Virus record (IMG/VR): IMGVR_UViG_3300047562_001311
Span: 1-24,450 of that record
Length of the DNA: 24,450 bases
DNA from: a virus
Strand: one strand, 5' to 3'
Positions 1 through 17,075 of the stretch are shown in pieces. Position numbers and translations under genes: made by a program. The notes beneath the pieces are model-generated. The model was not told where the DNA came from and ran no database searches. It was given only the letters and a program-made list of their open reading frames with translations. Numbering within the stretch: the stretch's first letter is position 1; each line of letters starts with the position of its first letter.

Positions 1-63
1 CAGCGCTACATGCACCTGCAGACGCACCACCTGTCGGCCTGCACCGCTGCAATCGAGGCCTGA
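1..63 (+). CDS. C-terminal end of a probable tyrosine integrase (partial)
   Basis: An open frame enters from the left edge and stops at TGA 61-63, giving the last 20 residues of a protein. It begins QRYMHL and ends AAIEA. Tyrosine recombinases of the phage integrase family end this way: the catalytic tyrosine sits in a short motif like RYxHL, about 15-30 residues before the stop, followed by a helix. If so, the tyrosine at bases 7-9 is the nucleophile that joins DNA during integration. A partial tRNA-Leu about 320 bases downstream fits an integrase next to its attachment site, as in cyanophage P-SSP7. Only 20 residues are visible, so the family call rests on the motif plus context. Confidence 0.6.
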   Translation, partial: QRYMHLQTHHLSACTAAIEA

Positions 64-66
64 GCC

Positions 67-258
67 ATGAGCGACAGCACCCGGATCATTGAGCTGCGCG
101 GCGGCCCGGCAGACGGCAAGGTCTTGCCGTGGAGGCATGGCGACTATCCCCTGCTCGAGGTTCCGATACGGACCAAGGGGCGCCTGAGCTTCGCCCTCTA
201 CACGGTCGACGGGGACGATCCATCCCGCTACGTCTTTGTCGCAGTCAGGGACGCCTGA
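67..258 (+). CDS. Small hypothetical protein (63 aa)
   Basis: The start ATG lies three bases after the stop of the integrase-like frame, with GAGG about 8 bases upstream, so the two are probably co-transcribed. The protein opens with a beta-like segment IIELRGGPADGK. The GGPADGK/GGPxDG signature occurs in many small uncharacterised phage and bacterial proteins, and the rest is a mix of short hydrophobic strands (LLEVPI, YVFVAV) that suggests a small beta-rich fold. I see no catalytic motif, signal peptide or membrane segment. Two longer frames overlap it (129-509 and 236-541), but they look like composition artefacts. Function unknown. Confidence 0.6.
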   Translation: MSDSTRIIELRGGPADGKVLPWRHGDYPLLEVPIRTKGRLSFALYTVDGDDPSRYVFVAVRDA

Positions 259-286: not shown

Positions 287-351
287 GGACCGTTTCAGTT
301 GCGGTTTGGATGCGGAAAGATGCGCGCTCGTGCATCCTCCGCATCCGGTCC
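287..351. repeat. Nested inverted repeats / long hairpin in non-coding region
   Basis: GGATGCGGA (308-316) pairs with TCCGCATCC (338-346). Inside it GATGC (319-323) pairs with GCATC (332-336), leaving an 8-base loop. An outer pair, GGACCG (287-292) and CGGTCC (346-351), flanks it. The result is a 14-bp two-part stem just downstream of the integrase and the 63-residue gene. No T-run follows, so it is not a classical intrinsic terminator. It could be an RNA structure, an mRNA end-protecting hairpin, or a protein-binding dyad of the recombination region. Confidence 0.5.
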
Positions 352-365
352 AATCGCTGAGATCC

Positions 366-378
366 CTTGCGGCGCAAG
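366..378. repeat. Short perfect hairpin abutting the tRNA-like segment
   Basis: CTTGC (366-370) and GCAAG (374-378) form a 5-bp stem with a GGC loop. It ends two bases before the tRNA-Leu-like segment starts at 381. It may be a chance structure or part of the attachment-site architecture. Confidence 0.3.
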
Positions 379-380
379 CC

Positions 381-422
381 GGGAGCATGGCGGAATTGGT
401 ATACGCAGCGGACTTAAAATCC
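381..422 (+). other. Partial tRNA-Leu(UAA), probable phage attachment site (attP core)
   Basis: These 42 bases read as the 5' half of a leucine tRNA: acceptor strand GGGAGCA, then a D-arm with the class II pattern GGCGGAATTGGTA, then the anticodon arm GCGGA-CTTAAAA-TCC with anticodon UAA. The match breaks in the 3' side of the anticodon stem, where the next bases are CA instead of the GC or GT needed to close it. There is no variable arm, T-arm or 3' acceptor strand downstream, so this is not a working tRNA. Integrases often use tRNA genes with crossover near the anticodon loop. Cyanophage P-SSP7 is reported to carry a 42-bp stretch identical to its host's tRNA-Leu just downstream of its integrase. 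That parallel makes attP the best reading, although the host gene itself is not visible here. Confidence 0.75.
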
Positions 423-433
423 CAATTCAACCT

Positions 434-447
434 CTACAGCCCTGCAG
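434..447. promoter_or_regulatory. Recurrent imperfect palindrome, copy 1 (upstream of RNA polymerase)
   Basis: CTACAGCCCTGCAG fits the pattern CTRCAnnCCYGYAG shared with 3011-3024 (one mismatch), 7367-7380 and 12549-12562. This copy lies 11 bases after the tRNA-like segment and about 78 bases before the RNA polymerase start. It has outward dyad symmetry (CTRCA / TGYAG). It may be a phage promoter element, an operator for a dimeric regulator, or an RNA hairpin. Confidence 0.45.
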
Positions 448-496
448 AACATCCGCCAGCACTGAGTTTCCACCGTTACATCCGAGCTCTACAGGG

Positions 497-567
497 GTGT
501 GGTGGATAAATTGCGGAAAACGCAGTGTTTTCGGTGGCTGATGCACCCCGCATTTCGTCCACCACAC
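497..567. repeat. Extended inverted repeat spanning the RNA polymerase start
   Basis: GTGTGGTGGA (497-506) is exactly complementary to TCCACCACAC (558-567). After a symmetric 5-base gap on each side, TGCGG (512-516) pairs with CCGCA (548-552). Within the loop, GAAAAC (516-521) pairs with GTTTTC (527-532). The candidate start codons of the RNA polymerase gene (GTG 525 and GTG 534) lie inside this structure, so it could limit translation or serve as a protein-binding dyad. Confidence 0.55.
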
Positions 568-2945
568 ATCTGGCGGAGGAAAAGGCGCGGGAATTAGCGC
601 AGCGCAAGGCATCTGAGGAGCGCGCGCTGGTCATCCGCAGGAACCTGGTGGTTGCGGGGCGAGAGTCGGCCACGGAATACGGCCGGGGCCTGTTTAAGGA
701 GTACGGCGAGCGGGTCACCGACGCCCTCGATGCCCTGTTCGGCCGGGTGGTGCGGGGCGAGGCGATCGCGGGCCCTCACTACTGCGCGGTACCTGCCCTG
801 CTGGCCTTCAGCAGCAAAGGGCTGAGGCCCATCGCGGCCCTGGCCCTGGGCGTGGTGCTCGATCGGCTCAGTCAGCGGCGCTCCTACAGAGAGGTGGCGC
901 TGGCCATCGGCCGGGAGATTGAGGACGAGGCCAGGGCGCTGAAGATCGAGGCCAAGGACCGCGACCTGCTGCGGCTGCTGAAGAAGCGTGCGGCGGGGCG
1001 GCGCAAGGAAGTGGTGGGCAAGTGGGCCCTCGATCAGCTGCGCCTGGGGCTCGAGCCCTGGAGTAATCAAGACCGCTTCCACATCGGCGGCCTGCTGCTC
1101 GATCTGGTGGTGGCCAACACCGGCCTGGTGCGGGTGCTGCAGCAGGGGCGGCGCAGCCCATCGCTCGAGCCCACTCCGGAAGTGCTGGCACTGATCAAGG
1201 CCAACCCGCCACGGCCGATGCCGGTGCGCAGGCTGCCGATGCTGGTGGAGCCCAGGCCCTGGGCCGGGCTGCATGGCGGCGGCCACCTGGACAACAGATC
1301 CCCGCTGGTGGTGAGCCGCAAGCCGTTGGACCTGGCCTACCTGGAGGGGCGCGACATCAGCCAGCAGCTGCGGGTGGTGAACGCACTGCAGCGCCAGCAG
1401 CTGGTGGCTGACCCATGGATGGTCGACATCCAGCGCCAGGCATGGGACGCCAACATCCGCGGGCTGTTCCCCGTGCGCCGGGATCCGCTCACGCCGCCGC
1501 CCCAGCCGGAGCCCTCGGCTGACAAGAAGGAATGGGCCGAGTGGCACAAGCGCAAGGCGGAGGCCTGGAAAGACGAGGCCATCAACAAGGCGGCCCGGCT
1601 CAAGATTGAGGAATCGCTGCGGCAGGTGGAGGCGATCGGCGATCGCCCGGTGTGGTTTGCCTACGACCTGGACTTCCGCGGCCGGGTCTACAGCTCCAAC
1701 CGTTACGTCACCCACCAGGGCCCAGACCACGAGAAAGCGCTGATCTCATTGCAGGGTGTGCCCTGCGGTGAAGAGGGCTTCGGGTGGCTGCTCAAAGCAG
1801 CGGCCGGCCACTACGGGCTGGGCAAAGCCAAGTGGGGGGAGCGACTGGCATGGGGGAAGGACAGCCTCGACCTGCTGGTGGCCATCGCCGAGCACCCCCT
1901 TGAGCGGCTTGAGTTGTGGCGTGGGGCTGATGACCCGTGGCAGCTGCTGCAGGCCGCCCGCGCCGTGCGCCAGTGGCTCGAGGATCCAAGTCGGCCCATT
2001 GGCTGCCCGGTGCGCCTGGATCAGACGTGCTCAGGCGTTGGCATCGCAGCGGCGCTGCTGCGGGATAAGCGGCTGGCCCGGCTCACCAACCTGATCGGCA
2101 GCACCAGGGCCGACATCTATCAGTCAGTGGCCGACCGGGTGATCAAGATGCTGCGCCACGAGGTGGAGGCGGCCGGCGACGTGGCCGCCCGGCAGGCCGT
2201 GTTCTGGCTGGACTTTGGGATCGACCGCTCCCTGGCCAAGGGCCCAGTGATGACGAGCATTTATGGCGCCAGCCACCAGTCGCTGATGGACGGGCTGATC
2301 GCGGCGATCGAGGAGCGCAAAGGCCAGGCTGATCTGTGGCGCCTGCAGGGGGATGTGCTGGCCCCGGTCCGCTACATGGCCGGGTTCATGCGGCAGGCGC
2401 TGAAAGAAGAGATCGCGCCATGCCTGGCCCTGCAGGAGTGGCTGCGTGGCGTGTCGCGCAAGGTGGTGAGCAAGCAGCAGGCGATCGAGTGGACCTCGCC
2501 CATGGGCTGGCCCATGCGACTGGCGGCTGAACTGGGCGACACGGTGGCCAGCGGCACGGCGCTCACCAGTCGCCCCCGGCAGCGGGCCAGGCGAGAGGAG
2601 CACCCGGAGGGAGAGCTCAGCGCCAGGGCCACGAACAGGGGCATCACCGCAAACGCGATCCACTCGTTTGACGCGGCCTTCTGCCACTCGATTGTCTGCG
2701 GGGTTGAAGCACAAGGCGTTCAGATCTTGACGAATCACGACTGTTTCGCGGTGGCGCCCGAATTTGCAGCGTCTTTGCATCAGCGCCTGCACAGCGAGTT
2801 CAGGGAAATGTTCAAGGTCGACTGGCTACAGCTGATGAGCGATGAGATCGCTTGCCGTGCAAAGGTTCGCAAGTTGAGTCCTGCCCCGATCACGGGAGAC
2901 CTCTGCCCTGGTCAGGTGGGCACCAACCCGTACGCCTTTTCGTAG
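525..2945 (+). CDS. Single-subunit T7-type DNA-directed RNA polymerase (806 aa)
   Basis: This enzyme would transcribe phage genes from phage-specific promoters. The conserved T7-family blocks appear in order. DLDFRGRVYSS (around residue 380) matches the T7 motif near MDWRGRVYA. LDQTCSG (D499) matches FDGSCSG with metal-binding D537 of T7. AKGPVMTSIYG supplies the K631/Y639 equivalents (K572, Y580, correct 8-residue spacing). NHDCF (H738-D739) matches HDSF with the second metal ligand D812. The protein ends in NPYAFS, close to the FAFA foot of T7. Length is 806 against 883 in T7; the shortening is N-terminal, as usual for cyanophage homologues. No ATG is available: an in-frame TAA lies at 507-509, and GTG 525 (GGAAAA upstream) or GTG 534 are the options. 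The segment aligned with the T7 specificity loop (about residues 675-705) is very different from T7, so T7 promoters would not be expected. Confidence 0.95.
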   Translation: MFSVADAPRISSTTHLAEEKARELAQRKASEERALVIRRNLVVAGRESATEYGRGLFKEYGERVTDALDALFGRVVRGEAIAGPHYCAVPALLAFSSKGLRPIAALALGVVLDRLSQRRSYREVALAIGREIEDEARALKIEAKDRDLLRLLKKRAAGRRKEVVGKWALDQLRLGLEPWSNQDRFHIGGLLLDLVVANTGLVRVLQQGRRSPSLEPTPEVLALIKANPPRPMPVRRLPMLVEPRPWAGLHGGGHLDNRSPLVVSRKPLDLAYLEGRDISQQLRVVNALQRQQLVADPWMVDIQRQAWDANIRGLFPVRRDPLTPPPQPEPSADKKEWAEWHKRKAEAWKDEAINKAARLKIEESLRQVEAIGDRPVWFAYDLDFRGRVYSSNRYVTHQGPDHEKALISLQGVPCGEEGFGWLLKAAAGHYGLGKAKWGERLAWGKDSLDLLVAIAEHPLERLELWRGADDPWQLLQAARAVRQWLEDPSRPIGCPVRLDQTCSGVGIAAALLRDKRLARLTNLIGSTRADIYQSVADRVIKMLRHEVEAAGDVAARQAVFWLDFGIDRSLAKGPVMTSIYGASHQSLMDGLIAAIEERKGQADLWRLQGDVLAPVRYMAGFMRQALKEEIAPCLALQEWLRGVSRKVVSKQQAIEWTSPMGWPMRLAAELGDTVASGTALTSRPRQRARREEHPEGELSARATNRGITANAIHSFDAAFCHSIVCGVEAQGVQILTNHDCFAVAPEFAASLHQRLHSEFREMFKVDWLQLMSDEIACRAKVRKLSPAPITGDLCPGQVGTNPYAFS

Positions 2946-5523: not shown

Positions 5524-5744
5524 GCTGGACCAGCGACTACGAACCCGGCGACGAGATCAAGGCTTATCACCAGGGCAACTGGAAGCGCGGAGCCGTGGTC
5601 TCAAAGCGCAAGAGCAGCCTTGCCGTCTTTCTTGGAAAGTTTGGCCACATCAACGTCCACGACCCTCGCAACATCCAGCCATGGCAATCCGAAAAGGAGA
5701 AGAACCAATCGACGTCTCTCGAGCCGCCGTCGTTCGACTTTTGA
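5520..5744 (+). CDS. Small SH3/Tudor-like hypothetical protein (74 aa)
   Basis: The start overlaps the previous stop as ATGA. The first 55 residues read like a small beta barrel of the SH3/Tudor type: YEPGDEIKAYHQGNWKRGAV, then LAVFLGKFGHINVHDPRNIQPW. The glycine-aspartate turn, the central GNWKRGAVV strand and the closing DPRNIQPW strand resemble KOW or Tudor modules that bind protein or RNA. The tail is a charged, disordered segment ending FDF. The 3' end overlaps a possible further small gene in another frame. The fold call is by eye only. Confidence 0.65.
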   Translation: MSWTSDYEPGDEIKAYHQGNWKRGAVVSKRKSSLAVFLGKFGHINVHDPRNIQPWQSEKEKNQSTSLEPPSFDF

Positions 5745-16191: not shown

Positions 16192-17075
16192 TGGCATTTG
16201 GAGTTGACGACGCCATCGCCCTAGGACTTGGCTTCGGCCAAATGGGCATGAGCATCTTTGGCGCTTCTGCCCAGAACGCCTCAGCCAAGCAGCAATACAA
16301 GGACGCGCTGAAGTACCAAAAGGTCAGCGACAAGTACGCGCGGTGGTCTTCCAAGATCAACGCCCGCATCGCCAACACCCAGAGCAAGTACCGCTACTGG
16401 GCGGAGCTGGTCAACTACAACCAGAACCTCAGCTACGTCAATCAGCTGCGGAACTACGAGCTCACCAAGGCCTACGAACAGGCTGTGGTGGTGCGACGCA
16501 CGCGCACGTCGGCCATGTCCGACTTCGCGCTGCAGGCTCAGGCACTGAGCGAGGGCATCCGCGAGCAAGCGGCGCAGGATGCAGTTTCTGCATACCAGTA
16601 CGCCCACCAGGCCATGAAAGCCCAGGCCCAGGTGGTGGCCGCTGGGATGGAAGGCGCCAGTGTTGACCGGCTGGTGAATGACTACGACCGGCAGCTGGGC
16701 GACTTCCGCGCGCTGCAGCAGATCAATCAGAACTTCCGCGAGCGGCAGTACACGCGCGAGCAGGCAGGGCTCGTGGCCGGCTACCTGAGCAAATACAACA
16801 GCCAGCAGTTCTACAAGCCCCAGCCTTACCAAGACCCGGTGCGGCCGTTTGCGCCGCTGCCGACGCTGGTGATGCCGCAGCCGCCGTCGATGACCGGGGC
16901 TGGCCCCAGCCAGGCGGCCGCCAATCTCGGCATCGGCAACGCCGTGCTGAGCGGCATCAACACAGGCCTAAGCGTCTGGCAGGGCCTGCAGCAGTTCACC
17001 AGTAGTGGCAAGCCAGGGGGCGGCTCAGGTCTCCTCGGCTTTGACCTTGCCGCGCAGGGGATCAACTTGAACTAA
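16191..17075 (+). CDS. Internal virion protein B, T7 gp14-like (294 aa)
   Basis: In T7, gp14 is ejected first and forms the pore in the outer membrane. This protein opens with a hydrophobic, glycine-rich stretch (IALGLGFGQMGMSIFGASAQNAS) typical of gp14 homologues, followed by a long coiled helical region rich in Ala/Gln/Tyr/Arg (residues about 35-205), including AAGMEGASVDRLVNDYDRQ, where GxSGxSVxxL-type text is common in the family. The C-terminus is proline-rich and then Gly/Ser-rich. It is longer than T7 gp14 (196), as usual for cyanophage homologues. GGGAGG precedes the start, and the gene begins the gp14-15-16 block. Confidence 0.85.
   Translation: MAFGVDDAIALGLGFGQMGMSIFGASAQNASAKQQYKDALKYQKVSDKYARWSSKINARIANTQSKYRYWAELVNYNQNLSYVNQLRNYELTKAYEQAVVVRRTRTSAMSDFALQAQALSEGIREQAAQDAVSAYQYAHQAMKAQAQVVAAGMEGASVDRLVNDYDRQLGDFRALQQINQNFRERQYTREQAGLVAGYLSKYNSQQFYKPQPYQDPVRPFAPLPTLVMPQPPSMTGAGPSQAAANLGIGNAVLSGINTGLSVWQGLQQFTSSGKPGGGSGLLGFDLAAQGINLN

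Follow-up and report, generated by a model that had tools for sequence, protein, structure and literature searches.

The 42 bases at positions 381 to 422 of virus record IMGVR_UViG_3300047562_001311 are very probably the attP core of a T7-like freshwater cyanophage, at which an integrase encoded upstream would recombine the phage DNA with the host's tRNA-Leu(UAA) gene. Position, orientation and conservation of the site, together with the proven analogues P-SSP7 and S-TIP37, give strong support by sequence comparison and analogy to this assignment, which an earlier note on the same DNA had proposed as probable. Because tRNA-Leu attP sites are already known in marine T7-like cyanophages, the assignment is new only in extending them to a broad freshwater lineage. 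The part worth following is the layout of the site as a tRNA 5' half, and what this layout implies for promoters.

The window, by which we mean the whole 24,450-base contig (64% GC) that constitutes the virus record, carries these features at and around the site:

1-63, plus strand: C-terminus of a tyrosine integrase (last 20 codons and stop), with the catalytic Tyr present (RYMHL)
67-258, plus strand: 63-aa ORF, a variable insert between integrase and attP (homologue at 5545-5736 of IMG/VR contig L009; absent in close relatives such as L007)
308-346, plus strand: GC-rich hairpin upstream of attP, GGATGCGGA...TCCGCATCC, with arms 100% complementary and no T run
361-366, plus strand: RATCCC motif, conserved immediately before attP in different lineages and with different tRNA-Leu isoacceptors
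366-378, plus strand: small inverted repeat CTTGC-GGC-GCAAG that abuts attP (TTCC/GGAA in relatives)
381-422, plus strand: tRNA-Leu(UAA) 5' half, comprising the acceptor 5' strand (7), TG, the D arm (17), A, and then the anticodon arm
408-422, plus strand: presumed recombination core, with the anticodon 5' stem GCGGA (408-412), the 7-base loop CTTAAAA (413-419) and TCC of the 3' stem (420-422); tRNA identity ends just after the loop in the window lineage
434-450, plus strand: first copy of a 17-mer inverted motif, CCACACCCCTGYAGAGC, with 3 mismatches, conserved in relatives
486-502, minus strand: second copy of the 17-mer, exact and inverted relative to the first
525-2945, plus strand: T7-like single-subunit RNA polymerase gene (PF00940, E 2.4e-48), starting 102 nt after attP

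The plus-strand sequence of 381-422, GGGAGCATGGCGGAATTGGTATACGCAGCGGACTTAAAATCC, is an exact 5' half of tRNA-Leu(UAA) that begins at tRNA base 1. The anticodon TAA occupies 415-417 within an uninterrupted anticodon loop, and the match to tRNA is lost at base 423 (C); the coordinates given in the earlier note, and the extent it described from the acceptor stem to the 3' side of the anticodon stem, are exact. The segment agrees at 41 of 42 bases, with one mismatch, with an intact gene for tRNA-Leu(UAA) on IMG/VR contig L017. ARAGORN calls its fusion to the 3' half of that gene tRNA-Leu(taa), and the acceptor stem of the fusion pairs completely. The fragment is therefore a functional-looking 5' half rather than a chance match. 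Chance is also excluded, on sequence grounds, by a blastn match to phage tRNA-Leu (E 6e-7 in 2.3 Gb) and by the retention of 41 to 42 of the 42 bases where flanks match only at chance level. An intact phage tRNA gene can be ruled out, since the 3' half is missing and ARAGORN finds no complete tRNA anywhere in the window; an Rfam scan of the window returned nothing either. Searching a plasmid collection produced only 80-90% matches, to unrelated bacterial tRNA-Leu.

The genome is classed as T7-like on its RNA polymerase, its RusA and further T7-like genes: downstream of the polymerase come a weak ssDNA-binding match, a RusA-like nuclease, an NrdR-like zinc ribbon and a 5'-3' exonuclease. The integrase of the window is known from its last 20 residues and from relatives. 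Over residues QRYMHLQTHHLSACTAAIEA it shares 95% identity with the C-terminus of the 330-aa integrase of contig L009 (PF00589, E 1.9e-18), a phage whose RNA polymerase is 86% identical to that of the window, and the catalytic Tyr is the sole invariant column among eight aligned integrases. The earlier note was thus right to place an integrase upstream of the site, and its view that the contig is an un-integrated form agrees with the phage genes on both sides and with the lack of a tRNA 3' half after the site. The site follows the integrase directly in L007, and in the window one 63-aa ORF intervenes. This ORF has no Pfam match and is flanked by GCCTGAGC repeats.

A looser pattern identified relatives on 32 IMG/VR contigs, 5 with complete tRNA genes and 27 with the half-tRNA. 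In the window and in all 27, the half-tRNA extends from tRNA base 1 to just past the anticodon loop. T7-like RNA polymerase was detected downstream in 23 of the 27, the remaining loci ending less than 1 kb from the site, and the order integrase-attP-RNA polymerase is conserved in the window lineage. Contigs L025, L031, L039 and L040 form an outlying clade, with just ~26% identity to the window lineage in integrase and RNA polymerase. The window shares 41 of the 42 site bases with L025, L039 and L041, compared with just 7-8 of 40 flanking bases on either side. Conservation includes the first 26 bases (381-406), although these lie outside the anticodon-loop core that integrases of this kind probably exchange (PMC8371274); most likely they are kept so that insertion can again yield a functional tRNA.

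Cyanophages often carry tRNA genes, and in some integrase-encoding T7-like phages, such as LUZ100, a tRNA-Leu gene lies near int. The fragment could on these grounds be a functionless relic, left either by a tRNA gene that the phage once carried or by an imprecise excision long ago. A relic would decay, however, and here the end point of the fragment is constant throughout the lineage, and the same 42 bases are found in the same place in phages whose flanking sequences are no more alike than expected by chance. This conservation already largely refutes the relic explanation, which we consider highly improbable.

Half-tRNA-Leu sequences also follow int in the cyanophages S-SRP02, P-SSP2/3, P-SSP7, S-TIP37, S-CBP1, S-CBP2, S-CBP3, S-SRP01, S-TIP28 and SS120-1. 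Judged by the anticodon loop, the isoacceptor is Leu(UAA) in P-SSP7 and P-SSP2/3, Leu(CAA) in SS120-1 and S-CBP3, and Leu(CAG) in S-TIP37, S-CBP1, S-CBP2, S-TIP28 and S-SRP01; in Syn5 and S-CBP42 the half-tRNA score equals background. An attP has been reported in 11 of 13 integrase-carrying phages (PMC8776855). Integration at tRNA-Leu junctions has been proven for P-SSP7 and S-TIP37, and the S-TIP37 junctions require both int and attP (PMC8776855, Shitrit et al.). The earlier note had likened the site to that of P-SSP7 in isotype and length. The isotype is borne out by the CTTAAAA loop in the P-SSP7 sequence; the length of 42 bp is stated for a metagenomic contig matching MED4 (PMC3861242), and the ISME J paper gives 39-bp motifs. 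We infer both integration by the window phage itself and its exact crossover, which is presumed to lie within 408-422 by analogy with a general rule (PMC8371274).

The identical 42-mer is present in five IMG/VR contigs (L003, L004, L005, L006 and L007) belonging to at least three clearly different phages, and a common host tRNA allele should therefore exist. The exact match to a host tRNA-Leu, whose lack the earlier note had named as a ground for refutation, does not occur among 84,980 GTDB species genomes, a collection that may simply lack the host and that covers contigs of 3 kb or more. A 36-mer with one free base also had no match in these 84,980 genomes, though with its fixed D-loop allele TATAC it is uninformative on hosts with other alleles. 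The host is probably a freshwater cyanobacterium and, by analogy with S-SRP02, whose host is a freshwater Synechococcus, likely a picocyanobacterium. Should recombination require attB to match the anticodon loop in full, the host tRNA-Leu(UAA) gene would be intron-free, as the earlier note logically proposed, because an intron inside the loop would destroy attB. Marine picocyanobacteria are not known to have this intron in tRNA-Leu(UAA). The site offers a clue to the host, namely a presumably intron-free tRNA-Leu(UAA) gene with the 42-base allele.

In the proposed mechanism, the integrase would join attP to the host tRNA-Leu(UAA) gene by recombination, with the crossover most probably in the anticodon loop. 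The integrated phage would give its 5' half and upstream region to the host 3' half, restoring the tRNA, and the host's own promoter and 5' half would be left facing the phage RNA polymerase gene. Most elements that target tRNA genes rebuild the 3' part and leave the gene its promoter; the 5'-half layout is rare, accounting for 159 of 3919 islands in Islander (PMC4383910). Archaeal pTN3-like integrases use the 5'-half form, and there the integrase promoter takes over expression of the tRNA (PMC8371274). Since attP here is a 5' half, the phage must likewise bring the promoter or upstream region of the restored host tRNA.

Candidate signals for such expression are found in several phages. P-SSP7 has a promoter-like TTGTTA-16-TATAAT 19 nt before attP, which is matched by 0.4% of its 90-nt windows, TATAAT precedes attP in P-SSP2 and SS120-1, and the L025 clade has TTGAAA-15-TAGGAT before attP. 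In seven of nine marine-type phages an intrinsic terminator starts 27-40 nt after attP, while 0.6-3% of windows from those loci contain one. The arrangement in marine-type phages looks like a cassette of promoter, half-tRNA and terminator, whose terminator would block read-through from the displaced host promoter into phage genes. Our scan detected no promoter able to express the restored tRNA in the window, and no T-run terminator after attP in the window lineage, where such terminators are almost absent from these high-GC loci.

A promoter-like site and terminator framing the half-tRNA in several marine phages could also allow a short 5'-half RNA to be made, and the main reason for retaining the half-tRNA might then be its transcript, a decoy or tRNA-fragment RNA that acts on the host, with integration secondary. 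However, no promoter was detected in the window lineage, the integrase adjoins the half-tRNA in those carriers that can be examined upstream, and deletion of attP abolished integration of S-TIP37 (PMC8776855). There is accordingly very little chance that a decoy RNA is the main role of the element.

A function in integration might be extended further: insertion could hand transcription of the phage RNA polymerase gene to the host tRNA-Leu promoter and so act as a delayed lytic switch. In the integrated state the RNA polymerase gene would indeed lie 102 nt beyond the host promoter and 5' half, and in the window lineage no T-run terminator lies in between; however, T-run terminators are hardly used in these high-GC loci, such that their absence says little, and most of the marine phages (7/9) have a terminator at exactly this place. 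In S-TIP28 and SS120-1, attP is followed by small ORFs and ssb instead of RNA polymerase, and an attP that always points into RNA polymerase is therefore not a general rule. We regard such a switch as unlikely. A wider idea is that T7-like cyanophages carry an exchange cassette, by which integration gives an essential tRNA gene a phage promoter in place of its own and, where the terminator is lacking as in the window lineage, also brings RNA polymerase under the host tRNA promoter. We put this idea forward tentatively and hold it to be doubtful. If it is true, integration would be self-limiting, which could explain integration without lysogeny. The 5'-half layout, by obliging the phage to supply a host tRNA promoter, is in any case relevant to why T7-like cyanophages integrate and yet yield no stable lysogens.

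Returning to the attP assignment, several further elements surround the site. The upstream hairpin at 308-346 is strong: the fold of 300-380 has a z of -3.0, and its L007 equivalent a z of -4.2. RATCCC occurs within 30 nt upstream of attP at 16 of 25 sites versus 0.31 expected, although the sites include close relatives and fewer than 16 cases are independent. It lies at -8/-9 in marine phages and mostly at -20 in the window lineage, and because it spans phages with different tRNA-Leu targets, it is a phage element and not host flank. Pair counts for the inverted repeat at 366-378 are mixed, with 67% of cells paired. The 17-mer has only two copies in the window, versus 0.22 expected, and the pair is a possible candidate for a MarR operator or for integrase arm sites. 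With just two copies in 24 kb, it is unlikely to be a promoter of the phage RNA polymerase, and the case for an RNA hairpin is weak (z -1.2; both-side changes in only 2 of 15 pairs). Direct GCAACCA repeats are clustered in L025, L031, L039 and L040, with three to five at -130 to -52 and two at +136 to +145 relative to attP, and resemble arm-type sites of integrases.

Some related phages differ abruptly at the site. Around attP (5576 and 5854, respectively), L011 and L013 are clearly divergent up to tRNA base 21, past which there is no mismatch for more than 300 nt and then 1-2% for 2 kb; this step is a recombination breakpoint at or beside the attP core. Mosaics made by the integrase at attP were considered and set aside: L011/L013 is a lone case, similarity drops again after ~2 kb, most pairs have no step, and ordinary homologous exchange suits the pattern equally well. 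The close phages L019 and L024 differ strongly in a patch from -150 to -5 before attP that ends at the half-tRNA, and in L019 this patch is a nearly exact match to L025 and L040.

Among known systems, the attP of P-SSP7 (NC_006882, 5860-5901) resembles the window site in being a tRNA-Leu(UAA) 5' half from base 1, placed between int and RNA polymerase in the same orientation. Its allele differs, with 35 of 42 bases in common, and unlike in the window, attP of P-SSP7 is preceded by the promoter-like site and followed, 38 nt on, by a terminator. The freshwater Synechococcus podovirus S-SRP02 (MW822601) shares the gene order and has a half-tRNA-Leu(UAA) at the same place, at 16336-16377, which is neither annotated in the record nor mentioned in the genome paper (PMC8790148). 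Its integrase is 54% identical to that of L009 and its RNA polymerase is related (47%), although the tRNA allele has 6 mismatches, and KilA-N and two other genes lie between int and attP. S-TIP37, S-CBP1, S-CBP2, S-TIP28 and S-SRP01 also have a 5'-half tRNA-Leu attP after the integrase, but their target is tRNA-Leu(CAG), and in S-TIP28, unlike the window, int and attP come after the RNA polymerase gene. L009 has two weak MarR-like genes before int, an arrangement common to LUZ100, in which the phage RNA polymerase has been suggested to be under MarR-based control (PMC10134795). The pTN3-like archaeal integrases (PMC8371274) likewise use a 5'-half tRNA site, such that the restored tRNA loses its own promoter, but they are suicidal integrases whose gene is split on integration, and they belong to an unrelated element.
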